From: Bacillota bacterium
Lineage (GTDB): Bacteria > Bacillota > Sulfobacillia > JAJZIM01
DNA length: 64,000 nt
Direction of reading: 5' to 3'
Assembly: GCA_021810565.1 (NCBI GenBank)
Contig: JAJZIM010000001.1
Span: 55,422-119,421, forward strand
A program made the position numbers and the translations under genes. Under the pieces are notes generated by a model, which made no database searches, was not told the DNA's origin, and saw only the letters and a program-made list of their open reading frames with translations. Every line of letters starts with the position of its first letter. Position 1 is the first letter of the stretch. Shown here in pieces: positions 5,290 through 32,772 of this stretch.

Positions 5290-5435
5290 CGGTGCGACTC
5301 CCCGCGGGTTGCCCATCCAAACTGGCGCAACGGAGGATTGGCCCGGAAACGGTCCCCGCGCCGGGGCGGCGCGAACGACTGTCGGTCAGCTTTCAGGCCT
5401 TCCCGGCCTGAGGAATGGCAACAGTTGACACCACT
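5290..5435 (+). mobile_element. Solo right-end (omegaRNA/RE-like) fragment of an IS200/IS605-type element, inverted relative to the copy at 63547-63692
   Basis: About 145 bp near-identical to the reverse complement of 63547-63692; ends TCAGGCC-TTCCC-GGCCTGA hairpin then ...CAACAGTTGACACCACT. Confidence 0.6.
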
Positions 5436-6360
5436 ATTTGAGGGTTCCGGTCCAGGAGGTCGAGGCCCCGGTCGCGGAATTGGTCACCTGGACGGTAACG
5501 GAGTCGCCGCCGCCCAACGCGTGGTTGCCGTGGAAGGAACCCAGCACGATCCGGGTGTCGGTCCAACTCCGAAAGGAGGGAATGACCGCGGAGGTGCCCT
5601 GGCCGCCGGTCTGCCAGTTCGACGTGTTGTCTTTGAACGAGAAGCCGACGACGTTGCCGACGATGGACCGGTCGGAGGACAGTCTGGCGAAGGGGGACGG
5701 CCCGAAGCCCGAGCCGTCGATGGTGATCCGGGGATTCATCTGGGAGTTGAAGTTGAAGCTAACCGACCGGATCACGGGCCCGCCGGCGGCCGTCCCGGAA
5801 GCCGCGCCCGAGAGAGCAAGGTCGCCGTTCCAAAGGGTGGACCGCCCGTTCTGCGCGTTGCGCACCGCGACAGTCAGGGAGTCCCCCTCCGCCAGGATCC
5901 AGCTGCCGCCGTAGGCGTGGCCGAAGCCTTGGATCACGATCCGCCGGTCGGACCAGGACCGGTAATGCAGCGTCACCGCGTTGCCCGAGCCGACACCGCA
6001 GGGTCCCGGGCTGCCCCGCCAGGTGCCGTCGCACCCCGCCTGCCAACCGCCCTGGGTGTTGTCCATGACCGAGAAGTCGGCGATGTTGCCGGCATAGGGC
6101 ATGGCGACCGGGGCGGAGCCGAAGCCGGAACCCTCCACGGTTATGGTCAGGTTCTGCAGGTTTCCCGGCTGGCCGCTGAAGGAGACCGAGCGGACTGCCG
6201 GCCCCTCGGCCTTCGTGGCCTGGCCCGCGTGGTTTGGGGAGCCGTTGGCCGGCTTGCCGACCACGGAGGACCCCTTCCCGCCGAGGCTGATCTCACAGCC
6301 GGCCGAGGCGGCCAACAAGGCGCTCAGCCCTAAAACCAGCCACATTCTCGTCCCGTTCAT
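5434..6360 (-). CDS. Secreted lipoprotein with two related beta-rich repeats (SVSFxxxxxNxxITVxGSGFG)
   Basis: Signal peptide and lipobox 'ASAGC'; duplicated repeat; frameshifted paralog at 33374-34314. Confidence 0.7.
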   Translation of the reverse strand: MNGTRMWLVLGLSALLAASAGCEISLGGKGSSVVGKPANGSPNHAGQATKAEGPAVRSVSFSGQPGNLQNLTITVEGSGFGSAPVAMPYAGNIADFSVMDNTQGGWQAGCDGTWRGSPGPCGVGSGNAVTLHYRSWSDRRIVIQGFGHAYGGSWILAEGDSLTVAVRNAQNGRSTLWNGDLALSGAASGTAAGGPVIRSVSFNFNSQMNPRITIDGSGFGPSPFARLSSDRSIVGNVVGFSFKDNTSNWQTGGQGTSAVIPSFRSWTDTRIVLGSFHGNHALGGGDSVTVQVTNSATGASTSWTGTLK

Positions 6361-6779
6361 CGCCGCTCATCCCCTTCCCCATTAGGAAGCCGTGGCCGCC
6401 GGCAGCCTGGCCGGCGGGGCCCCAGGAGAGACCGCATCCCGCGCATCTTGAACATCGCCATCCCTCCTTGTCAGCCGGTACACTCTCCGGCTTCGCCTCC
6501 GCTGGCGCCCTCCCCGCCCGCGGCCTGTCGTCGCCCTCCTGTTCAGGGCGCCGCGACCCTCGGGTCGCCCCGGCCTGCCCGTGCACTCCCCCGGCGCCGC
6601 GCCCTCTCGCAGATCACCCCGGGATCGGGTCTGGGCGCTTCCCCGCGATCCCAGGCGAGGGGCTCCCCGTTTCCTCGCCGCCCCCCCGCTTCCCGTGGGA
6701 CGGTGCCACTCCTACGCCCCGCCCGTGGGCCTGGCGCGGCCGGTGGGTCCCCCCGCACCTTGCGGCGGGGGAAGCGAGC

Positions 6780-6935
6780 CGTCCGTGACGCCCATGGAGA
6801 GGGCGTCGCCCCCCATGGCGCCAAAGCCTGCGTGGCTGGACCGTCGGGCCGCAAACCCCCTCGGCTCCGATCCGCGCCTCTGGTCTCTTGCTCCACCTCT
6901 TGCACCAAGAGGCCATGTCCTCCGCCGCTTGGCGG
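6780..6935 (-). pseudogene. Decayed YbjQ-like gene fragment
   Basis: 'VQEVEQETRGADRSRGGLRPD' aligns to 'LQDVEQEIRGVDRSRGAFTSD' of intact YbjQ-like paralogs at 23-24 kb; frame is broken. Confidence 0.55.
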
Positions 6936-6976
6936 GGGGAGCCTCCCGACCGCCTGCGCCGGCCTCGACCCCGCCC

Positions 6977-7225
6977 CTACCGGGATTGGCGAAGCTGCCG
7001 GCGCACCGGCCAGTCTACGAAGGCGAAGACGAAGAACATGATCAGGTTGATGACGGGCACGAACCCGACCAGGACCCACCATCCGGAGTAGCCGGCCTTG
7101 TTCAAGATCCGCACCCACGCGATGATGTTCAGCACCGTCAGGACCAGCATCACCACCACCACGCCGCCGATGGCCAGGACGCCGGTGGCGCCGTTCAAAC
7201 CTGGCACTGCGTTCACTTTCCACAC
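6977..7225 (-). CDS. Small membrane protein, cassette component (paralog at 12299-12538)
   Basis: Two TM helices 'GVLAIGGVVVVMLVLTVLNIIAWVRILNKAGYSGWWVLVGFVPVINLIMFFVFAFVDWPV'. Confidence 0.7.
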   Translation of the reverse strand: MWKVNAVPGLNGATGVLAIGGVVVVMLVLTVLNIIAWVRILNKAGYSGWWVLVGFVPVINLIMFFVFAFVDWPVRRQLRQSR

Positions 7226-7238
7226 CTCCCCCCTCTGG

Positions 7239-7562: not shown

Positions 7563-7597
7563 GGTTCACCCACCCTTTCGCGCTGCCGTGATCAGGG

Positions 7598-7990
7598 CTA
7601 GACGCTCCCGCCATACCGCTCGGCCATGGCCCCGATGACCGGCAGGGACACCTGCTGCCCCTGGAAGGCGCGGATCATGACCCACAGCCACAGGGCAAAC
7701 AGGGCCTGGCGGACCAGGGCGCTCAGAGCATAGACCAGGAACCACAGGTGGACCGCGAACCGGAGCCCCACCAGCGCCCCCAGGACCATGGCGATCAGGA
7801 TGTACGCCACCGACCAAAGGATCGACTGCATGGCCGCGAAGCGCACCACGGGTTGCCGTCCCTCGATGATCAGGAAGATGATGCCGGTGATGAAGCCCAA
7901 CCGGTAGCTGAGTCCCGCCGCCGTGTTGGGAGCCAGGCCGCTGCACCCCGCAGCCCCGGGTCCGGGATAATTGCCGCCCCTGTCGCCCAC
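7598..7990 (-). CDS. DUF4870-like small membrane protein, cassette component
   Basis: 'GLSYRLGFITGIIFLIIEGRQPVVRFAAMQSILW' pattern typical of DUF4870; GTG start after AAAAGGAG. Confidence 0.75.
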   Translation of the reverse strand: MGDRGGNYPGPGAAGCSGLAPNTAAGLSYRLGFITGIIFLIIEGRQPVVRFAAMQSILWSVAYILIAMVLGALVGLRFAVHLWFLVYALSALVRQALFALWLWVMIRAFQGQQVSLPVIGAMAERYGGSV

Positions 7991-8154: not shown

Positions 8155-10914
8155 TTACGGGTTGTAAGTGAAGTTGGGGGCTCGCGCGGAGCAGGTGCCG
8201 GCACCGCACACTTGGACGTCGACCGATCCGGCGTAGCCCGTCGCGGGCATGGTCGCCGTGATCTCAGTGGCAGACACCACCTGGACATTCGTAGCCGGTA
8301 CGGGGCTGCTGAGGTTGGCATAGGTGACCGTCACGGAGTCCCCTGCGGCGAACCCGCTGCCGGTGATGGTCACCGGCGTGCCGCCATAGTACGAGCCGCT
8401 GTCCGGGCTGATGGAGGTCACCACCGGCCCCTGGCTGGTTCCCGACCCGCCGCTGGTGCCGTTGTAAGTGAAGTTGGGGATTCGCTCGGAGCAGGTGCCG
8501 GCGGCGCACACTTGGACGTCGACCGGTCCGGCGTAGCCCGTCGCGGGCATGGTCGCCGTGATCTCAGTGGCAGACACCACCTGGACATTCGCAGCCGGTA
8601 TGGTGCTGCTGACGTTGGCATAGTTGACCGTCACGGAGTCCCCCGCGGCGAACCCGCTGCCGAAGATGGTCACCACCGTGCCGCCATAGTACGAGCCGCT
8701 GTCCGGCCTGATGGATGTCACCCACGGTCCCTGGCTGCTTCCCGACCCGCCGCTGGTGCCACTCCCACCGCTGCCCACCACCACGAAGTAGTTCTGCAAT
8801 TTCAGGAGCACCGCCGCCACCTGGGCCCGGTTCAGGATCGTCTGAGGCTGGAAGCTGCCGTCAGGGAAGCCCGCCATGATCCCGGCCTGGACGGCCGTGG
8901 CCACGTAGGGCTGAAGGGCCGGCGCGATGCCCGAGGCGTCGGTGAATTTCCCCAGGATCGCCTGGGTCTGAGCCGCCGAGGCGAGCTGCAGCTTGCCGGA
9001 CTGGACCAGGATGCGCACGATGACCGTGGCCACGTCCTGCCGGTCGAAGCCCTGGTCGGGATGGAAGGCAAAGCCGCCCCCGGGAAGCTGGTAGTAGTCG
9101 TAGTAGGGTGCGGCCGCCTCCACGCACGGGTACGCCCAGGCTTGCGAACCGCTGGCGGACACATCGGCGAAGGCGACGGGGCTGGCCGGCTGGGGCAGGG
9201 CGAAGGCGTGCTGCATCAGGCAGGCGAACTGCGCCCGGGTGACGTTGCCCGCAGGATCGTACTGAGCGTTGCCCACCCCGTGGATGATTCCCTCCTTGGC
9301 CAGGGTGTCGATGGCGTTCTTAGCCCAGGCGTAGCCGCCCAGATCGGTGAAGCCGGTCGTACCGGTGCCGCCGGAAGCCTGGTAGGTGAACTGATCCGCG
9401 GCGACCGCGGCGCTCTCACCGCCCGGGGTCAGCACCCGCACGTCCACCGTGCCCGAGCCGGGGGGTGACGTGGCGGTGATTTGGGTGTCCGAAACCACCT
9501 GGAAGGAGGCCGCCGCTCCACCGGAGCCGGCGTTGCCCAGGGCCGTGGAGCCGGCGAAGACGACCGCCGTCGCCCCGGTGAAGCCCGAGCCGTTGACGGT
9601 GATCTGGGTGCCTCCGGCCGCGGGGCCGCCGGTCGGACTCACCGAGGTTACCACCGGCCCGGCGCTCGTGCCGCAGGTGGCCGTGGCGGCATATAGCTCC
9701 GGAGAGGAACCGTCGTTATTCACGTATAGGACATCCATGCCCCCCGGAGCCGCGGCCACCGACACGAACTGCAGCGGGTCACCGCTGGTGGAAGGCGCTC
9801 CCACCGCCACGGGGCTCCATTTGCCGCCCGCGAAGGTGGCCACGTAGGGGGTATCGCCGACTGGATTGCCGCTGGCATTGGGACTGGAGTTGTAGGCCAC
9901 GACGGGACCGCAGGCCGCACTCACCGCCGCCGATGGGCTGTCAGTATTGTCTGTGACGACTCCAGGGCTGGGACCCATCTGGGTATCCGCCCAACTGCCG
10001 CCGGCATCGGTGGCCACGTAGGCGGTGCCAATGGTGCCCCCGGAGAAAACCGCGGCGACATGCACCGGGTTGCCGTTTACCAGGCCCACGGCTATCTGCC
10101 GCATGGAGCCGAAGTCGTTCGGAGGGGTGAACACGGTCTGCGCCTGGCCAGCAGCAACATCGCTCATGAACTGCAGAGTTCCATAGTTAAGGTCCCAGGC
10201 CAAGCTGACGGTTTGGCCGTCGGAGGCCAAGACGGGCATTCCCGCATTGCCTGCGGCGGCGGCCACGTTCTGGATATTCCAGGCGGCGGTGCCGCCGGCC
10301 TGCGGCAGGGAGGCCAAAGAGACCGAGGCCAGATAAACCGAGCCGGCGCCGGAAACCGTACAGGGACTTCCGTCCTGGAAGGCCACATACAGGGTATTCC
10401 CGGCGATGGCCGCCGACGGATCGTTGGTTTCAGTACCCAAGCCGCACGAGGCGCTGCTGTTGGGCGTCACGATGCTCGCCTGGACCCAGGGTCCGCCGGG
10501 ATTCCCCGACGGGTTGTAGTCCAGGTTGAGGCTGCCGTCGGAGGCGATGTAGGGGACGTAAACCGTACCGTTCTGCACGGCGATGGTCTCGGTGGGGGCG
10601 AACCCTCCGCCGGTCTTGAGCCCCGATACCCCCAGGTTATAGCTCTTCCAGGTGCCCCCGGCGTTGGTGGCCAACCAGAGGGCGGGGTTCACGTATACCC
10701 AGTACTGGTTGCTGCCGCTGACCACCAGATTGCTGGCCCAGTCCACTCCCGCCGTGCCCTGCAGGGTCAACACCGGTTGGCTCTGGGACCAGGTCACTCC
10801 GCCCCCGCCGGCCAAGGCCGGTAACGGGGTCACGCCCAGCGCGGCCGTGGCCGCCAGCACCAGGGCGGTCCCGCCGGCCCCCAAGGAACGCCACAATCTG
10901 CCTAAACGCATCAT
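8155..10914 (-). CDS. Secreted surface protein with TIG/IPT domains and SLH repeats (paralog A)
   Basis: Signal peptide; 'VTSVSPTGGPAAGGTQITVNGSGFTGATAVVF' TIG motif; SLH motif 'FTDLGGYAWAKNAIDTLAKEGIIHGVGNAQYDPAGNVTRAQFACLMQHAF'. Confidence 0.88.
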   Translation of the reverse strand: MMRLGRLWRSLGAGGTALVLAATAALGVTPLPALAGGGGVTWSQSQPVLTLQGTAGVDWASNLVVSGSNQYWVYVNPALWLATNAGGTWKSYNLGVSGLKTGGGFAPTETIAVQNGTVYVPYIASDGSLNLDYNPSGNPGGPWVQASIVTPNSSASCGLGTETNDPSAAIAGNTLYVAFQDGSPCTVSGAGSVYLASVSLASLPQAGGTAAWNIQNVAAAAGNAGMPVLASDGQTVSLAWDLNYGTLQFMSDVAAGQAQTVFTPPNDFGSMRQIAVGLVNGNPVHVAAVFSGGTIGTAYVATDAGGSWADTQMGPSPGVVTDNTDSPSAAVSAACGPVVAYNSSPNASGNPVGDTPYVATFAGGKWSPVAVGAPSTSGDPLQFVSVAAAPGGMDVLYVNNDGSSPELYAATATCGTSAGPVVTSVSPTGGPAAGGTQITVNGSGFTGATAVVFAGSTALGNAGSGGAAASFQVVSDTQITATSPPGSGTVDVRVLTPGGESAAVAADQFTYQASGGTGTTGFTDLGGYAWAKNAIDTLAKEGIIHGVGNAQYDPAGNVTRAQFACLMQHAFALPQPASPVAFADVSASGSQAWAYPCVEAAAPYYDYYQLPGGGFAFHPDQGFDRQDVATVIVRILVQSGKLQLASAAQTQAILGKFTDASGIAPALQPYVATAVQAGIMAGFPDGSFQPQTILNRAQVAAVLLKLQNYFVVVGSGGSGTSGGSGSSQGPWVTSIRPDSGSYYGGTVVTIFGSGFAAGDSVTVNYANVSSTIPAANVQVVSATEITATMPATGYAGPVDVQVCAAGTCSERIPNFTYNGTSGGSGTSQGPVVTSISPDSGSYYGGTPVTITGSGFAAGDSVTVTYANLSSPVPATNVQVVSATEITATMPATGYAGSVDVQVCGAGTCSARAPNFTYNP
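8161..8755. repeat. Two tandem 300-bp direct repeats, each encoding one TIG domain, in paralog A
   Basis: Matching sequence begins at 8161 and 8461 (GTTGTAAGTGAAGTTGGGG...), exactly 300 bp apart, with few mismatches. Confidence 0.9.
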
Positions 10915-11316: not shown

Positions 11317-11649
11317 TCACCCTCCCCCCGGCGTATCGTAAACCCATCGTTGCTCGGCAGGATCCAGCACCCGCGGCGGGTCCAGGACGGTATGCATCCG
11401 GCCTTGGTTTGCGCCCGCGCCCAGGTGGGTCACCGCCCCGGACGTATCGGCTTCCCGGAAATGACTGCCCGGAAGCGGCCCATCCGTCCCCGCGGGGGAA
11501 CCCGCCCAAGGGGCCGTGCCCGCCAGTTTCCGGGCCGATCCACGAGGGCCGCCACCAGGCACGGCGGAATGCCCAAAGCTAGGAAGGCGAATCTTCGGCC
11601 ACCATCTTTTCCAGCCACCTCTCGCGGTCGGTCCGGGAGCTTTCCCCAA
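11317..11649 (-). pseudogene. Decayed paralog of the 149-aa hypothetical protein at 16089-16538
   Basis: 'SHFREADTSGAVTHLGAGANQGRMHTVLDPPRVLDPAEQRWVYDT' aligns to 'IHFREANAPCAAPHLDAGGNPGAMHSILDVLRMLDPAEQRRLFGGT'; N-terminal half scrambled by frameshift. Confidence 0.55.
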
Positions 11650-11774
11650 GGGAAGCGCCTGCCTGCCAAATGTTGACCTGCAAGTCCGCGGGCGCCCTTC
11701 ACCTACGTCTCAAACCCCGCCGCCACCGGCCCCATACCCGGGCCCCAGGGGAAGGGGAAGAAACCCCGCCCCGG

Positions 11775-12232
11775 TTATCCCTGCACCATCACCTCGGCCT
11801 GGGAGCCCGGGGCCGACTGGCCGGTCTGCTTGACGGCGGCGCCCACGGCCCAGACCTCCATGACGTCGGTGCCGTGGTGGATCACCTGGAAGTCGACCCC
11901 CACCACTCCGTCGGCCCCCAGTTCGTCGGCCTCCCGCTTCATGCGGGACAGGGCCAGCTGGCGCGCGTCGTACATGAGCTCCGTGTACTCCGTGAGCCCC
12001 CCCCGCACCAGGCCTCTCAGCGCCGTGGTCAGCCCGCCGGTAACCCCATGGAGAACACGCTGTTGCTCATGACCGACCTCGCCGGGATGTACCCTTGGCT
12101 CTGGAAAAGCCCCAACTCCTGGACCGTCAGGTCCGGGGTGAAGGCCCCCCGGCTCCGGTCCACGCCCTTCATCTCCTGCTCCACTTCCTGCAGGGAGCGG
12201 CTTCGCCCCCCGCCGCCGCCAAACAGCGGCAT
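11775..12232 (-). pseudogene. YbjQ-like gene split by a frameshift
   Basis: ORFs 12029-12232 (N-term) and 11775-12008 (C-term) together match the intact 153-aa protein at 23127-23588. Confidence 0.75.
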
Positions 12233-12298: not shown

Positions 12299-12538
12299 CT
12301 ACCGGTGCTGCCTAAGCTGTCGGCACACCGGCCAGTCTACGAAGGCGAAGACGAAGAACATGATCAGGTTGATGACGGGCACGAAACTGACGAGGATCCA
12401 CCATCCGGAATAGCCGGCCTTGTTCAGGATCCGCACCCACGCGATGATGCTCAGCACCGTCAGGACCAGCATCACCACCACCGTGCCGCCAATGGCCAGG
12501 ACGCCGGTGGTGCCGTTGAAACCTGAAACTCCGTTCAT
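12299..12538 (-). CDS. Small membrane protein, cassette component (second copy)
   Basis: Near-identical to 6977-7225 product. Confidence 0.7.
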   Translation of the reverse strand: MNGVSGFNGTTGVLAIGGTVVVMLVLTVLSIIAWVRILNKAGYSGWWILVSFVPVINLIMFFVFAFVDWPVCRQLRQHR

Positions 12539-12560: not shown

Positions 12561-12884
12561 TCAGTGCAGCAGGCTCCACAGGATCCACAGCAAGAGCAGG
12601 CCGCCCAGGAACCACCAGGTGATTCGCCCGGCCTGGAAGTTGACCCGGTCCACCAGGAGTTGCCCCGTGGAGCGGTTGCGGCACAGCATCACCTCTTCCC
12701 CCGCCGGGCTGCGGGCCACTTTGGCCTCCAGCACGTCCCCCGGAGCGAGGCGCAGGTCCCGCCGGGTGGCCGTGAAGCGTAGCACCCGGCGGCCGCCACC
12801 TCCGACGTCCAGGGCCACCGTGTACACGGCGGAGACGTCCCCCAGGCGCTCCAGCTCCTCCACCCTGCCGCGCACGGTCTCCAT
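12561..12884 (-). CDS. Hypothetical membrane-anchored protein, cassette component (second copy)
   Basis: Near-identical to 7239-7562 product. Confidence 0.7.
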   Translation of the reverse strand: METVRGRVEELERLGDVSAVYTVALDVGGGGRRVLRFTATRRDLRLAPGDVLEAKVARSPAGEEVMLCRNRSTGQLLVDRVNFQAGRITWWFLGGLLLLWILWSLLH

Positions 12885-12919: not shown

Positions 12920-13303
12920 CTAAACGCTCCGACTGTACCGCTCGGCCATGGCCCCGATGACCGGCAGGGACACCGGCTGCCCCTGGAAGGCGCGGATCAT
13001 CACCCACAGCCACAGGGCGAGGAAAGCCAGGCGGATCAGCAGACTCAGGTAATAGACGAGGATGTAAAGGCCGGAAGCGATCAGGATGCCGAAGAACACC
13101 CCCAGGACGATGGAGATCAGGATGTACGCCACCGACAAGAGGATCGACTGCCACGCCGCGTAGCGCACGATAGGATCGCGCTTCTCGATGACCAGGAATA
13201 TGATGCCGGTGATGAAACCGAGCAAGTAGCTGAGTCCCGCCGCCACGTTGGGAGCCAGTCCGCTGCCGGCCGGAACGCCGGGTCCGGGAGCATTGCCGCC
13301 CAT
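12920..13303 (-). CDS. DUF4870-like small membrane protein (second copy)
   Basis: 'NVAAGLSYLLGFITGIIFLVIEKRDPIVRYAAWQSILLSVAYILISIVLG'. Confidence 0.75.
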   Translation of the reverse strand: MGGNAPGPGVPAGSGLAPNVAAGLSYLLGFITGIIFLVIEKRDPIVRYAAWQSILLSVAYILISIVLGVFFGILIASGLYILVYYLSLLIRLAFLALWLWVMIRAFQGQPVSLPVIGAMAERYSRSV

Positions 13304-13410: not shown

Positions 13411-15936
13411 TTACTTGCTGTAAGTGAATTGGGGGGTGCTGTTTGCGCAAACAGAGCCGGTGGCGTTGCATATGTCGATCCAGTACACGCTACCCACGCC
13501 CAAGCCCGCCGGGGTGGTCGCCGTAATCTCGCTGGAGGACACCACCTGGACGTTGGTGGCCTGTTGGATGACGGTACCACTTTGGTAGGGGATGAAGGTC
13601 ACGGAATCCCCCTGGGCGAAACCGCTGCCGGTGATGGTTATGGCCGTGCCACCGCTCACCGGGCCGCTGTCAGGAGTGATGGATGTCACCGCCGGGCCCT
13701 GGGTGGTCCCCGACCCGCCTCCGGTACCGCTCCCACCGCCGGTACCACTCCCGCTACCGGCCCCGCTACCGCCGCCTCCCACCACTACGAAGTAGTTCTG
13801 CAATTTCAGGAGCACGGCCGCCACCTGGGCCCGGTTCAGGATCGTCTGGGGCTGGAAGCTGCCGTCAGGGAAGCCCGCCATGATCCCGGCCTGGACGGCC
13901 GTGGCCACGTAGGGCTCGAGGGCCGGAGCGATGTCCGAGGCGTCGGTGAATTTCGCCAGGATCGCCTGGGTCTGAGCCGCCGAGGCGAGCTGCAGCTTGC
14001 CGGACTTGACCAGGATGCGCACGATAACCGTGGCCACGTCCTGCCGGTCGAAGCCCTGGTCCGGATGGAAGGCAAAGCCGCCTCCGGGAAGCTGGTAGTA
14101 GTCGTAGTAGGGGGAAGCAGCCTCCACCGGCTGGTACTCCCAGGCTTCCGGACCGCTGGCGGACACATCGGCGAAGGCGATGGGGCTGGCCGGCTGGGGC
14201 AGGGCGAAGGCGTGCATCATCAAGGAGGCGAACTGCGCCCGGGTGACGTTGCCCGCAGGATCATATTGCCCGTTGCCCACCCCGTGGATGATCCCCTCCT
14301 TGGCCAGGGTGTCGATGGCATTTTGGGCCCAGGCGTAGCCGCCCAGATCGGTGAAGGTGGGCGTACCGGTGCCGCCGGACGACTGGTAGGTGAAGGCGTC
14401 GGCCCCGGCCTCGCTGACGGCGCTCTGGCCCGCCGGGGTGGTCACCACGATGTAGACCGTCCCGCCGCCCGGAGGAGATACCGCCGTCAACTGGGTGTCG
14501 GACACCACTTGGAAGCTGGCCGCCGGTCCGCCCGTTCCCGAGGCGCCGTTAGCCTGGCCCGAGGCGTTCTGCCCCTGGAAGGTCACCGCCGTGGCCCCGG
14601 TGAAGCCCGAGCCGGTGACGGTGATCTGGGTGCCCCCGGCCGCGGGGCCGCTGTTGGGACTGACCGCGGTCACCACGGGCGCCGCCGCGGATGAGCAAGT
14701 CTCGCTGGATGCGTAGAGCACCGGTGAGCCGCTGTCGTCGTTGAGCCATACCAGGTCGAAACCGTTGGCCGTTGCCGCGATGCCGGGGCTCATGGGGTCT
14801 AGGCTCTGTTCAGGGGCGCCGACGTTCTGGGGCGTCCACTGGCCGCCCGAAAGGGTGCTCACCACCACTTGGGCCGCCGTTGCGTTTTGGCTGGGCAGAT
14901 GGGTATACGCCATCGCTTGGCCGCAGGCCCCCACCGCCGCAGTTGGCCGCTCGTTACCCGTCACGTTGCTCTGCTGGAGTTCCGAGGACTGCCAGCTGCC
15001 GCCGGCGTTGCTCGAAACCCAGATGTCCACGACATTGCCGCCGGCACCCAGGGCCGCCAGGTCGACCCCGCCCGAGGCGGCCAGGGTCATCTTCGACCGG
15101 TCCATGCCCTGACCCGACACCGTGGCCGCAACCTGGGGGGAGGCCGGCCAAGTGAAGCCGTTCGCTCCGCCCGGCGTGCCTTTCACGAAGCCGATGACGC
15201 CGCCGTAGCCGCCTAGCTGATATGCCAGGTCGAGGCTGCCGCCGTCCGCAGCGAGGGCTGGGTAATAGCCGCCGTTGGCATAGCCGCCGGTCGCCGCCGA
15301 GAACTGCCAGGCCGGCGAGCCGCCCGCCGTCAGCGCACTGATGGGCGCGGCGGCCACGTACACGTCGTTGGTCGCGGTGCCGCCGGCGCGGTTGCACGCT
15401 GAAGCGTCATCGAAAGCCACCGCCAGGACGCCGCCCACCACGGCCGCCTGGGGATCCGCCGCCTCGAGGCCCATCCCGCAAAAGCCGGAATTGCCTTTCG
15501 GCAACACCGTCACGTCCGCCCAGGTACCGGAGGGTCCCGCAGGATCAAAGGCCAGTTTCACGTCGCCATTGGTGTCCATGTAGGGGATGTAGGCGACCCC
15601 GCCGGATACGGCCAGTCCGTAGGGCCCCTCGCTGTTGGTAGCAGTGGCGTCGGCGACACCCGTCTGATACTGCCGCCAGCTGCCGCCCGCGTTGGTCAAA
15701 AGGGCATAGGTGCCGCCGAACTGCGCCACCAGGTACTGGCTGGTGCCATCCACCACCAACGGGGACACGGTGGTCGGCGTGCCTTGCAAGGTCAATGCCT
15801 GCTGGGGCGCCGACCAGCCGGAACCTCCCCCGCCCGCCAGGGCTGGCGGGGGGACCGCTCCCAGGGCAGCCATGGCTGCCAACAGCCAGGCCAGCGTCAC
15901 CCCTAAAAGAGACCGCATCTCGCGCATCTTAAACAT
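13411..15936 (-). CDS. Secreted surface protein with TIG/IPT domains and SLH repeats (paralog B)
   Basis: Signal peptide ending 'PPALAGGGG'; TIG motifs; three SLH-like repeats nearly identical to paralogs A and C; RBS AAGGAGG. Confidence 0.88.
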   Translation of the reverse strand: MFKMREMRSLLGVTLAWLLAAMAALGAVPPPALAGGGGSGWSAPQQALTLQGTPTTVSPLVVDGTSQYLVAQFGGTYALLTNAGGSWRQYQTGVADATATNSEGPYGLAVSGGVAYIPYMDTNGDVKLAFDPAGPSGTWADVTVLPKGNSGFCGMGLEAADPQAAVVGGVLAVAFDDASACNRAGGTATNDVYVAAAPISALTAGGSPAWQFSAATGGYANGGYYPALAADGGSLDLAYQLGGYGGVIGFVKGTPGGANGFTWPASPQVAATVSGQGMDRSKMTLAASGGVDLAALGAGGNVVDIWVSSNAGGSWQSSELQQSNVTGNERPTAAVGACGQAMAYTHLPSQNATAAQVVVSTLSGGQWTPQNVGAPEQSLDPMSPGIAATANGFDLVWLNDDSGSPVLYASSETCSSAAAPVVTAVSPNSGPAAGGTQITVTGSGFTGATAVTFQGQNASGQANGASGTGGPAASFQVVSDTQLTAVSPPGGGTVYIVVTTPAGQSAVSEAGADAFTYQSSGGTGTPTFTDLGGYAWAQNAIDTLAKEGIIHGVGNGQYDPAGNVTRAQFASLMMHAFALPQPASPIAFADVSASGPEAWEYQPVEAASPYYDYYQLPGGGFAFHPDQGFDRQDVATVIVRILVKSGKLQLASAAQTQAILAKFTDASDIAPALEPYVATAVQAGIMAGFPDGSFQPQTILNRAQVAAVLLKLQNYFVVVGGGGSGAGSGSGTGGGSGTGGGSGTTQGPAVTSITPDSGPVSGGTAITITGSGFAQGDSVTFIPYQSGTVIQQATNVQVVSSSEITATTPAGLGVGSVYWIDICNATGSVCANSTPQFTYSK

Positions 15937-16088
15937 CACCCTGCCTCCTTCTCATTCGGTACCTTCGCCACCCGTGCCGTCCCTGGCGCCCCGCCGGCGC
16001 CGCGTCTCGCCGGCCTTTTCCACCGGCTCCACCTCCCCTCTTGGTCTTCGCCTTCCGAGCGGGTTCGCCACCCTCCCCGCCCGCTCAG

Positions 16089-23000: not shown

Positions 23001-23126
23001 AAGCGGGGTCCTCCGGGGCCGCACTGCTTGATCTTGAGCGATCGGCAAGGCGCGATCCCTCCACCGGCCCAGGTCGGTCCAGGCGGCACCCTGCTCCCGG
23101 CAGGGCGGGCGAATCCCCGCCCCCTC

Positions 23127-23601: not shown

Positions 23602-24192
23602 TCACTTGTTGGTCAGGTCGTCCAGCATGTTGAGCATCGTTGCCAGGTCTCCGCCCGCCTTGGACATCGGCCGCGCGTTGGCCACGGCAGCCTCCATGGG
23701 CAAAGGCTCCACCCGGGCTGTGGTCCGGCCGCCGGAGTCGGTGGAGATCACCACCTTGACCCCCTCCGCTTCCATCTGCTGGCCGGTCTGCTTGACGGCG
23801 GTGCCCACGGCCCACACCTCCATCACGTCGGTGCCGTGGTGGATCACCTCGAAGTCCACGCCCACCACCCCGTCGGCCCCCAGTTCGTCGGCCTCCCGCT
23901 TCATGCGGGACAAAGCCAACTGGCGGGCATCGTACATGAGCTCGGTGTACTCGGTGAGCTCTCCCCGGGCCAAGCCCCGCAGCGCGGTGGCGATACCTCC
24001 GGTGATGCCCATGGAGAACACGCTGTTGCCCATGACCAGCCCCACGGGGGTGTAGCCTTGGCTGCGCAAGAGCCAAAACTCCTGGGCCGTCAGGTCCGAG
24101 GTGAAGGCACCCCGGCTCCGATCCACCCCTCTTATCTCCTGCTCCACGTCCTGCAGCGGGCGGCTTTGCCTCCCGCCGCCGAAAAGCGGCAT
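23602..24192 (-). CDS. YbjQ-like protein with extra C-terminal extension (tandem paralog)
   Basis: Near-identical N-terminal 145 aa to the 23127-23588 product, then 'MEAEGVKVVISTDSGGRTTARVEPLPMEAAVANARPMSKAGGDLATMLNMLDDLTNK'; RBS GGAGGG. Confidence 0.75.
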   Translation of the reverse strand: MPLFGGGRQSRPLQDVEQEIRGVDRSRGAFTSDLTAQEFWLLRSQGYTPVGLVMGNSVFSMGITGGIATALRGLARGELTEYTELMYDARQLALSRMKREADELGADGVVGVDFEVIHHGTDVMEVWAVGTAVKQTGQQMEAEGVKVVISTDSGGRTTARVEPLPMEAAVANARPMSKAGGDLATMLNMLDDLTNK

Positions 24193-24296: not shown

Positions 24297-24680
24297 CTAG
24301 GCGCTTCGGCTGAACCGCTCGGCCATGGCCCCGATGACCGGCAGGGACACCTGCTGCCCCTGGAAGGCGCGGATCATCACCCACAGCCACAGGGCGAACA
24401 GGGCCAGGCGGACCACGGCGCTTAACGGATAGACCAGGAACCACAAGTGGACCGCGAACAGGATCCCCACCAGCACCCCCAGGACGATGGAGATCAGAAT
24501 GTACGCCACCGACAAGAGGATCGACTGCATGGCCGCGAAACGCACCACGGGTTGCCGTCCCTCGATGATCAGGAAGACGATGCCGGTGATGAAGCCCAAC
24601 AGGTAGCTGAGTCCCGCCGCCACGTTGGGAGCCAGGCCGCTGGACCCCGCAGCCCCCGGTCCGGGATAATTGCCGCCCAT
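24297..24680 (-). CDS. DUF4870-like small membrane protein (third copy)
   Basis: 'MGGNYPGPGAAGSSGLAPNVAAGLSYLLGFITGIVFLIIEGRQPVVRFAAMQSILLS'. Confidence 0.75.
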   Translation of the reverse strand: MGGNYPGPGAAGSSGLAPNVAAGLSYLLGFITGIVFLIIEGRQPVVRFAAMQSILLSVAYILISIVLGVLVGILFAVHLWFLVYPLSAVVRLALFALWLWVMIRAFQGQQVSLPVIGAMAERFSRSA

Positions 24681-24769
24681 GTCGCCCACTCCTTTCAGGA
24701 TCTCGGTTACGTCTGGGCCGGTGTGGCGGGGCGGGAGCCCCGCGGGGCCCCCGCCTCTCACCGCCCGGG

Positions 24770-26893
24770 TCAGGAACCCGTGACCACGAAGTAGTTCTGT
24801 AGCTTCAGAAGCACCGCCGCCACCTGGGCCCGGTTGAGGACCGTCTGGGGCTGGAAGCTGCCGTCGGGGAAGCCCGCCATGATCCCGGCTTGGACGGCCG
24901 TGGCCACGTAGGGCTGCAGGCTCGGCGCGATGTCCGAGGCGTCGGTGAATTTCGCCAGGATCGCCTGGGTCTGAGCCGACGAGGCCAGCTGCAGCTTGCC
25001 GGACTTGACCAGGATGCGCACGATGACCGTGGCCACGTCCTGCCGGTCGAAGCCCTGGTCCGGATGGAAGGCAAAGCCGCCCCCGGGAAGCTGGTAGTAG
25101 TCGTAGTAGGGTGACGCCGCCTCCACCGGCTGGTACTCCCAGGAGCCCCGGGACACGTCGGCGAAGGCGATGGGGCTGGCCGGCTGGGGCAGGGCGAAGG
25201 CGTGCATCATCAAGGAGGCGAACTGCGCCCGGGTGACGTTGCCCGCAGGATCATATTGCCCGTTGCCCACCCCGTGGATGATCCCCTCCTTGGCCAGGGT
25301 GTCGATGGCATTTTGGGCCCAGGCGTAGCCGCCCAGGTCGGTGAAGCCGGGCGTGCCGGTGCCACCGGACGCCTGGTAGGTGAACTGGTCGACGGCGACG
25401 GCGGCGCTCTCACCGCCCGGGGTCAGCACCCGCACGTCCACCGTGGCACTGCCCGGCGGGCTGACGGCGATGATTTGGGTGTCCGAAACCACCTGGAAAG
25501 AGGCCGCGGGACCGCCGGAGCCAGAGTTGCCCAGGGCCGTGGAGCCGGCAAAGACGACCGCCGTCGCGCCGGTGAAGCCGGAGCCGTTGACGGTGATCTG
25601 GGTGCCCCCGGCTGCGGGACCGCTGGTCGGGCTGATCGAGGTGACCACCGGTCCGCCGGAGCAGGTCAGGCTGGTGGCGAAGAGGTCGGAAGACCCGCTA
25701 TTGTCGTTGAGGTAGGTCAGGTCCAGGCCGTTTGACGTTGCCGCCAGCCCCGGCCACATGGGATTGTCGGGGTTCTCGACCGGGCTCACGTTCTGCGAAT
25801 TCCAGGCACCGGAGGCGAAGGTGGCTACGGCCACCTGGTCTCCCGTGGAGGTGGTGGTGTTCTCCTCAAAGGCCACGGCCGGGCCGCACGGGCCCAACGC
25901 CACGGTGGGCCGCAGGTGTTCGACGATGTCTTGGCTGAAAAGCTGTTGCGTGCTCCAGGTACCGCCGAGATTCGTGGCCGCCACCACGTTCGCCGTGCCG
26001 CTCGTGTACAGCGCCAGCACATCAACCCCGCCCTGGGCGGCCAGGGTCAGCTTCGCCTCGTCCATGCGGTCGTTGGTGCCCAGGCTCGTGACCACCTGGG
26101 GCTGGGTGGGCCAGGTGAAGCCGTCGGTGCCGGCCTCCCCCCGGACGAACAGGATGTCCCCAGGGCTGTCCTGGTACGCCAGGTCGGCGAAGCTTCCGTC
26201 GCCGGCCAAGGCCGGATAATAGCCGCCGTGGGTATAGCCCGCCGTCACCACGCCGACCTGCCACTGGGGCGTCGCGCCGGCGGACAGCGCGGTCATCGGC
26301 ACGGTGGCCACGTACACGTCCTGGCCGTGGGTGCTGCCGTTGGCGTTGCACGCCGGAGCGGCTTCAAAGGCTACCGCCAGCGTCCCGCCGATCACCGCCG
26401 CCGACGGTGCGGTGGGGTCGACGCCGGGTCCGCAGGTCTGGCCGGGCGTGGCGGCCACGATGGTCGCCGTGCTCCAGGCGCCCGCCGGCCCCGCGGGGGC
26501 GAAGGCCAGCTTCAGGTCGTTGCCCGTGTCCACATAGGCGATGTATGCTATGGCACCGGAGACGGCCAAGGCGTAATGCCCCTCTCCCGCACCCGCGTTG
26601 TAGTCGGTGATGCCGGTGTTGTACGCCTGCCAGGCGCCGCCCGCGTTGGTCAATAGTTCCGGCGCGCCGTTGATGGTCGCCACCAGGTAGTCTAGGCCGC
26701 CGCTGGAGACCAGGGGCGAGAGGGTGCCCGGCGCGGCGCTCAGGGTGAGCACCTGCTGCGCCGGGGACCAGCCGGAACCGCCACCCCCCGCCAAGACCGG
26801 CGCCGGAGTGACCCCCAGAGCGACCGCGGCCGCGAGCCAAAGGCTCAGCCCGCCGGAGCGCAACGGGCGTCCGAGTTTGCCTAAGCGCATCAT
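24770..26893 (-). CDS. Secreted surface protein with TIG/IPT domain and SLH repeats (paralog C)
   Basis: Signal peptide; TIG motif; SLH repeats at C-terminus; RBS GGAGGG. Confidence 0.88.
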   Translation of the reverse strand: MMRLGKLGRPLRSGGLSLWLAAAVALGVTPAPVLAGGGGSGWSPAQQVLTLSAAPGTLSPLVSSGGLDYLVATINGAPELLTNAGGAWQAYNTGITDYNAGAGEGHYALAVSGAIAYIAYVDTGNDLKLAFAPAGPAGAWSTATIVAATPGQTCGPGVDPTAPSAAVIGGTLAVAFEAAPACNANGSTHGQDVYVATVPMTALSAGATPQWQVGVVTAGYTHGGYYPALAGDGSFADLAYQDSPGDILFVRGEAGTDGFTWPTQPQVVTSLGTNDRMDEAKLTLAAQGGVDVLALYTSGTANVVAATNLGGTWSTQQLFSQDIVEHLRPTVALGPCGPAVAFEENTTTSTGDQVAVATFASGAWNSQNVSPVENPDNPMWPGLAATSNGLDLTYLNDNSGSSDLFATSLTCSGGPVVTSISPTSGPAAGGTQITVNGSGFTGATAVVFAGSTALGNSGSGGPAASFQVVSDTQIIAVSPPGSATVDVRVLTPGGESAAVAVDQFTYQASGGTGTPGFTDLGGYAWAQNAIDTLAKEGIIHGVGNGQYDPAGNVTRAQFASLMMHAFALPQPASPIAFADVSRGSWEYQPVEAASPYYDYYQLPGGGFAFHPDQGFDRQDVATVIVRILVKSGKLQLASSAQTQAILAKFTDASDIAPSLQPYVATAVQAGIMAGFPDGSFQPQTVLNRAQVAAVLLKLQNYFVVTGS

Positions 26894-26923: not shown

Positions 26924-27670
26924 CTACCCGCCGAACCCCGGCATGGGTTTGGCTCCCGCCGGCGGCGCGATGGGCGGAACGTTGCCCACCCCGGTCACCT
27001 GCAGGCTGTCCTTGTCGGTCACGCTGCCTTTGCTGGTGCTGACGGTGAATTCGAAGGTCGAGCTAAGCGGCGCCCCCGTGGCCGAATCTACGCAGGCGCT
27101 GCCGCGCTCGCTCTCGCTGACTCCCGAGATGCCGACGGCCGCTGATGCCAGCTGGAACGAGTTGCCCGACCGGCCCGCCACCGAGCACGGCCCGGTGTAG
27201 GTCCCCTTGGCTCCCGACCAAAGACTGCCCCAGCCGCCGATCCCCTCCGCGGCCATGCTCTCGAAGGAGTTGGGCTTCTTGGTCCCCATGTCGTAGTTCA
27301 CGCCGGTCGCCTGGTAGTAGTAGTGCCCGTCGTCGGCGGCGATCAACGTCACCTGGGCCGGAGTCCCCGGACTGACCACCAGCTTGTATTGCGTGGGGCT
27401 GTGGTAGTAGCCCTCCACGATCATGGCGGTGCCCTGCTTCCCCTGCACACCCAAGCTGATGTTGCTGCGATAGGAGTAGTTGCCCAGTTTGCTCAACCGC
27501 TGGGAGGTGCCGTTTCCATTCCAACTGGGGCTGTTGGCTACTGATCCGCCGCCGGAACTGTTGGCGGCGGGTGGAGCGGCCGCCGGCTTGGACGGACCGC
27601 ATCCTGCAGCCGCCAGCACCAGGGCCAAACCCGCTACCGCCACCGCACCGATCCTTTTCATCCCCGCCAC
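26924..27670 (-). CDS. Lipoprotein, hypothetical (intact copy of a family with two relics in this window)
   Basis: Signal/lipobox 'LVLAAAGCGPS'; C-terminal 'VTGVGNVPPIAPPAGAKP' shared with 22667 and 34311 fragments. Confidence 0.7.
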   Translation of the reverse strand: MAGMKRIGAVAVAGLALVLAAAGCGPSKPAAAPPAANSSGGGSVANSPSWNGNGTSQRLSKLGNYSYRSNISLGVQGKQGTAMIVEGYYHSPTQYKLVVSPGTPAQVTLIAADDGHYYYQATGVNYDMGTKKPNSFESMAAEGIGGWGSLWSGAKGTYTGPCSVAGRSGNSFQLASAAVGISGVSESERGSACVDSATGAPLSSTFEFTVSTSKGSVTDKDSLQVTGVGNVPPIAPPAGAKPMPGFGG

Positions 27671-27938: not shown

Positions 27939-28170
27939 CTAGATTAAGGGGCATTCTGGGAGCGTGCCGCGAAGTAGTCCCGAAGCGCCTCCCGCGAACT
28001 CCCCACCGGCTGCTCGCACAGATGGTGCAGTTGGGTCTCCACAGTCTTGGGGCTGATCAGGAGCAGGCGCGATCTGGCGGTTGGAGCAACCCTGGCTGAC
28101 CAGCTCGGCGATCCGGTATTCCTGCGAAATCAACCGTCCCAGCTGCACCCGCCACCCGCCGCTTACCGGT
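27939..28170 (-). pseudogene. Orphan 3' end of LuxR-family regulator gene (duplicate of 34686-34930)
   Basis: 'VQLGRLISQEYRIAELVSQGCSNRQIA' then frameshift; matches '..LLGRLTPQEYRIAELVSQGSSNRQIACLLLISPKTLETHL' of the intact gene. Confidence 0.85.
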
Positions 28171-28239
28171 GCACGACAGATTTGTAAGGTGAAATTAGGA
28201 ACCGCCGTGTGCAACCCTTCGATCCGTTACCAGGCTTCA

Positions 28240-28804: not shown

Positions 28805-30353
28805 TCATCCCCCAGGGCTTTGGAACGTGAACTGCAGGTATTTGTCGATCACCTCCGCCGCCTCAGCACGGGTGGCCGTCCCCAGAGGCCGGAAACTGCC
28901 GTCGGGGAAGCCAGCGAGCAGTCCTGTCGCAGCAGTCGCCGCCACGCTGCCTTGCGCCCAGGAAGCAATCCTGGAGGCATCGGCGAAGTTGGTGGCGCCG
29001 CCCGGCGCCCCTGGTGGGGGCAGGAGGCGGGCCAACATGACCGCCATCTGCTCCCGCGTGACCGGGGCGTCCGGAGCGAACGAGGTGTCGCTGACGCCGC
29101 GCACCATCCCGGCGTAAAAGGCGGCAGCCACGTAAGGCCCGTACCAGGCGCCGGGGTCCACGTCCGCGAAGGGGGTGGCGGCTGGAACTGGCGCCGGGGT
29201 CAGCCCGGCCGCCTTAACCAGCAAGGTGGCGAATTGGGCCCTGGTCAGGGTTCCTTGGGGGGCGAACACTCCCGGCGCCAGACCGCTGACTATGTTCTCC
29301 CGCAGCAGGGCGCCGACGGCCTTCTCGGCCCAGGACGCCTGGGACAGGTCCGGGAAGGCGGTGAGCGGCGAGGTGCCCCAAACTCCAGCCTTGCCCACGG
29401 CCCAACAGGCGGCGGAACCAGGGACACAGGTGGCTCCAAACAGGTCGCTTTGGGTTCCGACGTTCTGGGATTTCCAGATGCGCCCGCCGTCCAGGGTGAA
29501 CAGGACGGTGCCGGCTCCGCCTACCGCCCAACCATCCCACCGATCGGAGAAGGTCACCCCGCTGAGGAAGGCACCGGTACCGGAGGCTTGGGTCTTCCAG
29601 GTCTTGCCGCCGTCAGTCGTGGTCAGGATGACGCCGTCCACCCCCACCGCCCAGCCGTGGGCTGGGTCGGCGAAGAAGATACCCGTAAGGGGATGGGGCA
29701 CGCTGGTTGTCTGCACCGACCATGTCCCGCCGGCATCGGACAGGATTACGCCGTGGGCCGACGATTGATCGTAACCCACGGCCCAGCAGGTTCCGGTTCC
29801 CAGGCAGAAGGCCCCGAACAACTGAGGCAAGGGTTGACCGTCGGCAGCCGAAGACCAAGTGGCGCCGCCATTGTTCGTGAACAGCAGGGTGCCTTGCCCG
29901 GAAGCCGGATCGTATCCGACAATCACGCACCGCCGCAGGTCCGAACAGGCCACGCCGCTCAGGTCACCTTGGCTTCCCGAGACCTGGGGGAGCCAGGTTT
30001 TGCCGCCGTCGGTCGTCGACAGGACGGTTCCGTTTGCGCCGACGACCCAGCCGTGTTGGGCGTCGGGGAAGGAAACGCCGGTCCAGGAGGCATCCGGCCC
30101 CGGCTGGGTGACGGACCAGCTTTGGCCGCCGTTGACCGTACTCAAGACCTCTCCCCGCCCGGTGGAGGAATCCTGGCCCACGGCCCAGCAGTGGGCCGGG
30201 TCGGGGCAGGAAATGCCGCGCAGGACCGGCACCGGACCGGGAGGCAGGGTGACCCAGGCGGCGTCGGTCGGCGCCGCCGATGCCGCCTGAACCAGGGCGA
30301 ACAGGGAGAGCAGGGAAGCCGCCAGGGCGATGGTCCATTTAGTCCAGGTCATG
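28805..30353 (-). CDS. Secreted YCF48/BNR-type beta-propeller protein with C-terminal SLH domains
   Basis: Repeats 'DPAHGWAVGVDGVILTTTDGGKTWKTQ'; SLH 'FPDLSQASWAEKAVGALLRENIVSGLAPGVFAPQGTLTRAQFATLLVKAAG'. Confidence 0.85.
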
Positions 30354-30357
30354 GCCC

Positions 30358-32772
30358 TCAACTCCCTTCGTTGGCGGCGTTGAAGTAGGCTTCACCCGCC
30401 AGGACCGCCGGCCAGTAGGTATTCGTGAAGGGATCCGTTCCGTTGGCCGCATCCTCCTGGGCCTGGAGCAGTTCGGCGGCGTCGACCGCCTGGGCCTGGG
30501 TGGCCGCGGCGGCGGAGCAAACCCCGCCTGCCTGCTGTTCGTATTGGTTACCGTAGGCTTGCCAGGCGGTTTGATAAGTCTGGTTTGCCGCCGCCAACTC
30601 CCCTTCCTCGTCCTGGATGTCGGCATTTATTTCGTTTTGGATTTGGGTCAGGGTCTCCTTCCATAAGGTTGAATTGGATTTTAGGGCGTTCCCCTCTTCG
30701 GTGGCGTACATTTCATACCGGAAAATGGCCGCGCACTGTTGGCTCAGAGCCTTGTTGCCGTTGGTTTTCTTGCACTGGGAGTAGAGGCTGGCGATATAGT
30801 CCGTAATCTGGTTGTATTGATATTCCCAGACGAAGGGGTCAGTGGTAATGCCCGCGTCTTTAAGGGCCGCATCCACTTGTGGCCCGAATGATTTGGAAAT
30901 GGAAGCCGCTGCCTTGGAATACAGGTTGTCTTTGGCCGACTCTTCGGCATACAGGGCCGCAAACTCGGCCTGGTACTTTTGGGTGATGCTTTGGACTTGC
31001 TGCTGGTAGGCTTGTTGGATGGCTTGACCTTGGGAGTGGTACGCATCTTGCGCCTGTTGGCATTTTTTCTCCAGGGCCGCCGCCAAGGCGGCGCTGTCCT
31101 GGGCGAAGGACTGGTAGCCGGCCAGGTTGTCCGGATAGTGCTTGGAGATGGTCGTCGCTCCTCCGCCTCCGCCGGTTGGCACCAAAGTTACGGTGAAGCT
31201 CGCACTGGTCCCCGAGGTCAGGCCGGTGGCGGCGGCGGTGAGGGTGTAGCCCGTCCCCGCCTCGTTGATCCCGCAGCCGCTGAAGGCCGCGGTGCCAGCC
31301 GAGGTACTCAGGGGATCGGTGGCGCAGGTCAGGGTGGCAGCGGCGCTGCCGGTGCCGGAGGTGATGGACAGGGCCACGGAGTAAACGACCGAGGTCACGG
31401 TGTTGCCGTAGGCGTCCTCCACGGCCACCTCCGGTTGGGTTGCCCAGGCGGACCCAGCGGTTCCGCCGCCGGGTTGGAGCAGGAAAACCAGCTTGGTGGG
31501 AACCGAGACCACCACGTTGAAGGAGGAACTGACGGCCGAGGCAAGGCCGGTGGCCGCGGCGGTGAGGGTGTAGCCGCTGCCCGCCTGGTTGATCCCGCAG
31601 CCGCTGAAGGACGCCAATCCCGACGAGGTGCTCAGGGGATCGGTGGCGCAGGTCAGGGCGGCTCCGGCCGCCCCGGTGCCGGAGGTGATGGACAGGGAGA
31701 CGGCGTAGACGGCGGAGGTCACGGTGTTGCCGTAGGCGTCCTGGACGATCACCGCCGGCTGGGCCGACCAGGCGCTGCCCACGGGGCCGCCCCCGGGCTG
31801 GGCGGTGAAGGCCAACTGGCTGGCCGCCCCCGGGACGATGTTGTAGGCTGGCGACTGGACCACGGTGGAGTCGGCGGCGGTGTAAACCCCCAGGCTGTAG
31901 CTGCTGCCGGCCGTTTGGGGATTGGTGACGGTATGTCCCGCGCCGTCATTGTAGACCTCCGCGGTCACGGTCCCGCCGCTCGAAACGGACACCGGGCTGG
32001 CGAAGGAAAGGTCGGTGCCCGAGACGTTCACCGTCCCGGTCACCGCCGTTCCGTCCACGGCGATGTCGCTCCCGGCCAGGGTGGCCGGGAGGCTGCTTCC
32101 GAAAGGAAACTGCAGGTAAATGTTGGAGCCTGCGGTCATGCCGCTGGTGGCGGTGAAGCCAACGCTGTAGGATGACGACCCGCCGGCGACCGGATTGCCC
32201 AGGCTGGGGGCGATGACGTTGCCCACGGCGGAGCCGCCGATGGTGTAGTTGGTCGTGGCCAGCGTCGTGTCCTGGGAGGTGGAGACCGTCAGGACTTCGG
32301 AATAGGGCGGGGAAGGGCCGCCGCAGGTGTACGAATCCGGGTTGGTCACCGATGAGACGGCGACGGATAGGGCATCACCGGCCATGACGTTGTTTGGGAC
32401 GGTGAAGGTCACGGGGTCGCCGCCGCTGTTGCTCACCGGTTGGGTGACCGTGCCGCTGCCGGAGTGGGTGGTCTGATCGGTGACGACGTAGTCGCTTCGG
32501 GCGTAAGGGAAGTTGGAACTACAATAACCGGCTACGTTCGGTGGCTCGGTGGACTTGAGGGTGATGGTGTCCGTTCCGCCAACCAGGGCGCTCGCCACCT
32601 TGAAGTCAACGGTGTAGGTGGCCGTCGCCCCCGCCGTGGTCGGGTTGACCGTCAGCGTCAGATTGGTGACGGAGGTGGCGGCCAGGGCCGGCGGGGGCGC
32701 AACAGCCAGGACTGCCACCGCCAGCAAGTTGAACGCAATGAGGGACGCGATCCAAGTTCTCGTCTTGCGCAC
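30358..32772 (-). CDS. Large secreted protein with repeated Ig-like domains and C-terminal coiled-coil region
   Basis: GTG at 32772 after AAAGGGGA; signal peptide; two about 102-aa repeats 'LVFLLQPGGG..GSAW..QP.V.V.DAYGNTVTS'; Q/A-rich coiled-coil-like C-terminus. Confidence 0.78.
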   Translation of the reverse strand: MRKTRTWIASLIAFNLLAVAVLAVAPPPALAATSVTNLTLTVNPTTAGATATYTVDFKVASALVGGTDTITLKSTEPPNVAGYCSSNFPYARSDYVVTDQTTHSGSGTVTQPVSNSGGDPVTFTVPNNVMAGDALSVAVSSVTNPDSYTCGGPSPPYSEVLTVSTSQDTTLATTNYTIGGSAVGNVIAPSLGNPVAGGSSSYSVGFTATSGMTAGSNIYLQFPFGSSLPATLAGSDIAVDGTAVTGTVNVSGTDLSFASPVSVSSGGTVTAEVYNDGAGHTVTNPQTAGSSYSLGVYTAADSTVVQSPAYNIVPGAASQLAFTAQPGGGPVGSAWSAQPAVIVQDAYGNTVTSAVYAVSLSITSGTGAAGAALTCATDPLSTSSGLASFSGCGINQAGSGYTLTAAATGLASAVSSSFNVVVSVPTKLVFLLQPGGGTAGSAWATQPEVAVEDAYGNTVTSVVYSVALSITSGTGSAAATLTCATDPLSTSAGTAAFSGCGINEAGTGYTLTAAATGLTSGTSASFTVTLVPTGGGGGATTISKHYPDNLAGYQSFAQDSAALAAALEKKCQQAQDAYHSQGQAIQQAYQQQVQSITQKYQAEFAALYAEESAKDNLYSKAAASISKSFGPQVDAALKDAGITTDPFVWEYQYNQITDYIASLYSQCKKTNGNKALSQQCAAIFRYEMYATEEGNALKSNSTLWKETLTQIQNEINADIQDEEGELAAANQTYQTAWQAYGNQYEQQAGGVCSAAAATQAQAVDAAELLQAQEDAANGTDPFTNTYWPAVLAGEAYFNAANEGS

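Follow-up and report, generated by a model that had tools for sequence, protein, structure and literature searches.

A putative modular surface-protein locus with distinct heads and similar anchors in a genome of the Sulfobacillia

Do the small genes that accompany a repeated surface-protein cassette form one unit with it, or have they merely been duplicated along with it? The question is raised by a 64,000-nucleotide stretch of a Bacillota genome (hereafter the window; contig C14, positions 55422-119421; genome of 3.18 Mb in 115 contigs), in which genes for secreted proteins with SLH and TIG domains are interspersed with genes for DUF4870-like, 107-amino-acid (aa), 80-aa and YbjQ-like proteins. 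The host genome is the sole representative of its family in our comparison set, and the one other family of its order is represented by genome G001; the class-level comparison comprised 154 genomes, the phylum-wide sample 399 genomes, and the named set 77 loci. The explanation that we prefer, with roughly even confidence, is a modular locus for a surface coat, in which the heads are distinct, the anchors have been homogenised and a set of envelope helpers is dedicated to the system.

The gene order given in the original prediction (propeller-TIG-SLH protein, DUF4870-like, 107 aa, 80 aa) was found on the minus strand at 10.9-6.98 and 15.9-12.3 kb, but of the YbjQ gene said to complete it, copy 1 retains a 47-aa remnant (6801-6941), and in copy 2 the gene is frameshifted near 12.04 kb. 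The reduced cassette is present as described (26.9-23.1 kb, minus strand: propeller-TIG-SLH, DUF4870-like, YbjQ, YbjQ), and so are further surface proteins alongside, one ending in SLH and TIG domains (18.5-22.5 kb) and one a propeller with SLH (28.8-30.4 kb), which by its Pfam matches is of the YCF48/BNR type and differs from the cassette heads. The domain assignments rest on Pfam matches to SLH (3.8e-24), TIG (9.9e-33), YbjQ_1 (2.1e-21) and, for the 80-aa protein, DUF805 (4e-7), and the SLH proteins combine a signal-peptide-like N-terminus with SLH domains. To these we add the LAL regulators at 34.7-41.8 kb and a LAL remnant, a lipoprotein gene at 26.9-27.7 kb with its remnants, and, on contig C83 of the host genome, one more partial cassette (107 aa and two YbjQ, flanked on either side by SLH genes). 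The C83 cassette is followed by genes that, by eye, look FHA-like, Ser/Thr-kinase-like and M16-peptidase-like (locus L038, 7487-12800).

Tandem copies within one genome are weak proof of a unit, because a single duplication copies every gene. Copy 2 repeats copy 1 in direct orientation at a distance of ~5.0-5.3 kb, and part of the predicted repeated co-amplification is the tandem duplication of one block. Such a duplication could have carried the small genes along with the surface genes without any shared function, which would also fit the decay of the YbjQ and lipoprotein copies in the window and the finding of YbjQ alone elsewhere. We regard this explanation as possible but rather improbable, since the gene set recurs in another order in another family, the heads are older than the anchors of the copies (both described below), and the DUF4870, 107-aa and 80-aa genes are under purifying selection. 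All coding cassette copies have a ratio of non-synonymous to synonymous substitutions (dN/dS) below 1, and the cassette open reading frames (ORFs) are therefore real genes rather than chance ORFs; in the codon comparisons involving G001 the ratios are 0.09-0.31 for YbjQ, 0.37-0.50 for the 107-aa gene, 0.29-0.33 for the 80-aa gene and 0.53-0.59 for DUF4870, values that show purifying selection on the small genes.

The co-occurrence of these genes outside the host genome was checked, and they recur on two contigs of G001. One strand of contig C4 encodes a lipoprotein, the 80-aa protein, a propeller protein with a Cu_amine_oxidN1 domain, DUF4870, YbjQ, the 107-aa protein, a 110-aa coil protein and a second YbjQ, with identities to the window of 49% (107 aa), 68% (80 aa), 41% (DUF4870), 75-76% (YbjQ) and, over the full length, 58% (propeller and Cu_amine_oxidN1). 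Contig C253 carries SLH, DUF4870, lipoprotein, propeller-TIG-SLH, lipoprotein, propeller-TIG-SLH and TIG-SLH genes, so that gene content is kept relative to the window and order is shuffled. Because the propeller protein on C4 lacks SLH and TIG domains, the propeller-like head, and not SLH/TIG, is the constant partner. The proposal of one functional unit is accordingly strengthened by the recurrence of the set, but has to be amended in that SLH/TIG is not constant (DUF4870 and YbjQ occur without it on C4) and YbjQ is the least faithful member. The helper set was not reported together in the literature searched; the original prediction, too, did not recognise the combination as a described system. 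Judged from these sequences, the island is a real, conserved, modular surface-protein locus.

A head of ~390 aa at the N-terminus is common to the proteins at 8.2-10.9, 13.4-15.9, 24.8-26.9 and 16.7-18.4 kb, the last of which ends in Cu_amine_oxidN1 instead of TIG-SLH. We call this head a propeller from its repeats, an assignment that is unproven. The head tree contains three clades that cross families (support 100/100, 100/100 and 100/99): type I (copy 1, G001_b, G078_340), type II (G001_a, G078_143) and type III (copy 2, the Cu_amine_oxidN1 protein, copy 3, the C4 protein of G001, and G086). The SLH anchors are 92-95% identical in nucleotide sequence among the host copies and 65-72% identical to other genomes. 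Approximately unbiased (AU) tests, for groups picked after inspection of the tree, rejected the host heads (p 8.6e-47) and the G001 heads (p 1.7e-6) as single clades, and likewise rejected clades of type-I anchors (p 8.4e-58) and type-II anchors (p 9.8e-4). The boundary between head and anchor lies near 9.7, 14.7 and 25.7 kb in copies 1, 2 and 3, and in copy 1 identity climbs there from ~0.5-0.6 to 0.8-0.96. Heads are thus alike between genomes by type and anchors alike within a genome, and because the heads predate the anchors of the copies in these tests, copying of whole cassettes alone does not account for the history. Either the anchors may have been homogenised by gene conversion, or heads may have moved onto resident anchors.

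The small envelope genes differ in how closely they keep to such loci. The DUF4870-like protein of copy 1 matches PF09685 weakly (E 0.0018, 18.7 bits, curated cut-off 25); each copy has 2-4 hydrophobic segments, and the subtype occurs in 11 class genomes. The DUF4870 genes on C30 and C59 of G000 sit outside such loci. The 80-aa protein matches part of the DUF805 model (PF05656; 30.9 bits, cut-off 25.7). The 107-aa protein, predicted to be tail-anchored, was modelled with six strands and a hydrophobic helix at the C-terminus, and no PDB fold matched the model at E<=0.001; a TOBE/OB-fold assignment is not supported (20.7 bits, below the cut-off of 22.3, and no PDB fold match). It was not found in named genomes, and in the phylum-wide sample it was found in the host genome only, G001 having no match row and possibly not having been drawn; a weak match in G046 falls within the reading frame of a P-type ATPase and was discarded as chance. 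Tight profiles of the 107-aa, 80-aa and DUF4870 proteins matched, among the named loci, the sister contig only. The lipoprotein occurs in nine class genomes, and in G093 and G113 it adjoins DUF4870 beside a STAND-type ATPase gene. Its structure model (predicted local distance difference test score 73) has LolA, LprG, RseB and MucB as top fold matches (best E 8.4e-6), and nearly all of its 29 PDB matches at E<=0.001 are to these proteins or other lipid carriers.

YbjQ matches its Pfam model (YbjQ_1, PF01906; 76.9 bits, cut-off 23; solved relatives 2gtc and 1vr4) and is found in 85 of the 154 class genomes. All of its matches in the host genome fall within cassette loci, and its neighbours in the named loci read are unrelated; on the same ground, the short YbjQ genes found in Alicyclobacillus, Sulfoacidibacillus and other taxa were rejected as cassette carriers. 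No settled role for YbjQ or DUF805 was found in the literature searched. Elsewhere, adjacent pairs of double-YbjQ-domain genes (~280-330 aa) occur in ~45 loci of cyanobacteria, Streptomyces, Solirubrobacterales, Myxococcales and Ktedonobacteria (L078-L126), accompanied in 26 by a conserved ~134-aa gene, and in 13 loci of Ktedonobacteria (L061-L076, L128) a short YbjQ lies near a pyridoxal phosphate-dependent aminotransferase-like gene. A metal-related envelope system, suggested by the name 'putative heavy-metal-binding' of YbjQ and by the Cu_amine_oxidN1 domain, is very improbable: its evidence consists of family names, which do not amount to tested functions, two of the three copies have lost YbjQ, and the neighbourhoods read contain no recurrent metal transporter or redox gene.

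Regulators of the LAL type are a further recurring neighbour. The domains (AAA_16 3.1e-19, GerE 8.4e-13, TPR_12 7.3e-11) fit the LAL architecture of ~900-1000 aa, with an AAA ATPase at the N-terminus, a TPR region and a LuxR-type helix-turn-helix at the C-terminus, and among relatives with at least 40% identity, seven of the nine resolvable loci adjoin module-type genes, contig ends hiding the rest; near-identical DNA in G091, G088 C13 and G094 was counted once in locus tallies. The neighbours are W177, a lipoprotein and a giant W308/SLH ORF in G086 (C268), a lipoprotein and SLH in G078 (C338), a lipoprotein remnant and propeller-SLH in G078 (C340), DUF4870 and a W810-like gene in G091 (C10), a W810-like gene in G088 (C208), a giant SLH ORF in G093 (C60), and module genes at the first LAL of the window (34.7-37.5 kb). 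The two loci without module neighbours are the second LAL of the window, next to an MFS-like gene, and that on G086 C150. Because SLH matches are sparse (66, in a few tens of ORFs in ~3 Mb), this adjacency would be far above chance, which by a rough, post hoc estimate is a few per cent per LAL. Three genomes that belong to different genera or families share, at 99.6-99.7% identity, a stretch of 4-6 kb that includes LAL, DUF4870 and a W810-like gene (L189, L190, L232), which may reflect either recent transfer or mixed bins. UppP/BacA undecaprenyl-diphosphatase-like genes (41974-42861 and 44314-45219, with a PstS-like gene between them) were seen by eye near the LAL genes of the window.

The LAL adjacency, the predicted tail anchor of the 107-aa protein and the presence of the stress sensors RseB and MucB among the lipoprotein fold matches could also point to a sensing unit, in which an external ligand or envelope damage is detected by two lipoproteins, the propeller one and the LolA/RseB-like one, and the signal passes inward to LAL by way of DUF4870, the 107-aa protein and YbjQ. 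We consider this unlikely, as SLH-anchored heads lie far from the membrane, signalling is not a known role of either DUF4870 or YbjQ, and no LAL gene was seen on the two G001 cassette contigs or on C83, which are short. Of the roles offered in the original prediction, surface display or export is putative, and envelope stress found no evidence specifically favouring it.

In the modular surface coat that we prefer, each secreted protein would join a propeller-like head, drawn from several old and distinct types and probably binding a ligand, to an anchor that can be exchanged. This anchor would be SLH for attachment to the cell wall or, in the protein ending in Cu_amine_oxidN1, a lipid. Recombination between copies may keep the anchors and the small genes behind them alike (or heads may shift between resident anchors), so that heads stay distinct while anchors homogenise. 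The membrane-side set, comprised of the LolA/LprG-like lipoprotein, DUF4870 (Tic20 superfamily), the 80-aa membrane protein, the tail-anchored 107-aa protein and soluble YbjQ, would most likely aid delivery, folding or attachment of the heads, and the LAL ATPase regulator probably controls some of these loci. A stricter version, in which DUF4870, the LolA-like lipoprotein, a 107-aa adaptor and YbjQ form a dedicated system for insertion or handover at the membrane, controlled by LAL, through which a repertoire of interchangeable heads reaches the cell wall, is quite doubtful. Several observations weigh against a conserved surface coat with dedicated helpers: i) the 107-aa family occurs in two genomes of the class only, the host and G001, and the complete gene set therefore rests on one lineage split; ii) in G093 and G113 only DUF4870 and the lipoprotein recur; iii) YbjQ is broken in two of the three window copies; iv) promoters and terminators showed no clear excess over shuffles, so that operons remain undemonstrated; v) no BNR/propeller Pfam model matched the shared head, and its profile matched no solved PDB chain; and vi) the template modelling scores (TM-scores) of the lipoprotein fold matches are low (0.2-0.45).

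The features of the island are collected in the table; the frameshifts at 12.04 and 33.7 kb could be assembly errors.

Table. Features of the island, in window coordinates (W308, W177 and W810 are our labels)
Position	Strand	Feature	Basis or remark
5434..6360	-	W308, secreted, lipobox-like SAGC and two GSGFG repeats	relative inside giant SLH ORF beside LAL in G086
6801..6941	-	YbjQ gene remnant, copy 1, 47 aa, degenerate	tblastn
6977..7225	-	80-aa DUF805-like membrane protein, copy 1, two hydrophobic segments	Pfam DUF805 30.9 bits
7239..7562	-	107-aa protein, copy 1, beta-rich domain and C-terminal membrane helix	predicted
7598..7990	-	DUF4870 (HOTT)-like membrane protein, copy 1	weak Pfam match and family comparison
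8155..10914	-	surface protein, copy 1: type I head, TIG, SLH, TIG repeats	Pfam, head tree
11320..11709	-	W177 remnant	hidden Markov model, E 1e-14
11775..12232	-	YbjQ, copy 2, frameshifted	tblastn
12299..12538	-	80-aa protein, copy 2	sequence comparison
12561..12884	-	107-aa protein, copy 2	sequence comparison
12920..13303	-	DUF4870-like, copy 2	sequence comparison
13411..15939	-	surface protein, copy 2: type III head, TIG, SLH, TIG	sequence comparison, head tree
16089..16622	-	W177, no assigned family; relative immediately after LAL in G086	E 3e-54 in L222
16719..18362	-	head-bearing lipoprotein, Cu_amine_oxidN1 domain, type III head	58% full-length identity to G001 counterpart
18475..22500	-	large secreted protein, C-terminal SLH and TIG	Pfam; start called at 22500, provisional
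22667..23089	-	truncated LolA-like lipoprotein	66% identity to G001 counterpart over 108 aa
23127..23588	-	YbjQ, intact	Pfam 2.1e-21
23602..24192	-	YbjQ, intact, longer C-terminus	sequence comparison
24297..24689	-	DUF4870-like, copy 3	sequence comparison
24770..26893	-	surface protein, copy 3: type III head, TIG, SLH	head tree
26924..27670	-	lipoprotein, predicted LolA/LprG/RseB-like fold	structure model and fold search
27942..28226	-	remnant, LAL regulator C-terminus	profile match
28805..30361	-	YCF48/BNR-type propeller and SLH protein	Pfam
30358..32790	-	W810, secreted; relatives come after LAL or LAL-DUF4870 in G088, G091	sequence comparison
33377..34274	-	W308 second copy, frameshifted	sequence comparison
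34314..34556	-	lipoprotein remnant	E 1e-11
34686..37535	-	LAL regulator: AAA_16 ATPase, TPR, LuxR-type helix-turn-helix	Pfam
38949..41774	-	second LAL regulator, 48% identical to first	sequence comparison

The locus supplies testable partners for three widespread groups of proteins whose role is not known, namely YbjQ, DUF805 and those DUF4870 proteins that do not belong to the magnetosome branch: here they recur with defined surface proteins and with a lipoprotein assigned by its fold. Within the Tic20 superfamily, DUF4870 corresponds to the HOTT family, whose MamF-like branch is needed for magnetosome formation (PMC11628618); the window proteins are likewise small multi-helix membrane proteins, but no organelle is involved here, and translocation by HOTT proteins is only putative. 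With the LolA, LprG and RseB-MucB superfamily the lipoprotein shares a predicted fold and a lipobox, whereas sequence identity is 6-15%, TM-scores are low and lipid binding is putative. The sap system of Campylobacter fetus and the S-layer cassette of Clostridioides difficile provide alternative surface proteins with a shared attachment logic and recombination-driven change. The island is similar in having alternative surface proteins with a common attachment logic, and those systems have an inversion or switching machinery with one gene expressed at a time, a mode that would be speculative for the island; S-layer cassette types have been named for C. difficile (PMC6254364). In the babA/babB and homA/homB genes of Helicobacter pylori, one gene part is similar between strains according to type, and genes of one strain resemble each other in the 3' part (PMC3960876), and the behaviour of heads and anchors described here resembles this concerted evolution of the anchor end. 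The Helicobacter genes encode outer-membrane proteins of a Gram-negative bacterium and were compared across strains, whereas here SLH wall anchors of Bacillota, with accompanying small envelope genes, are compared across families, and the split between heads and anchors would be another example, in a distant group, of adhesin-type anchors that evolve in concert, extending across bacterial families.

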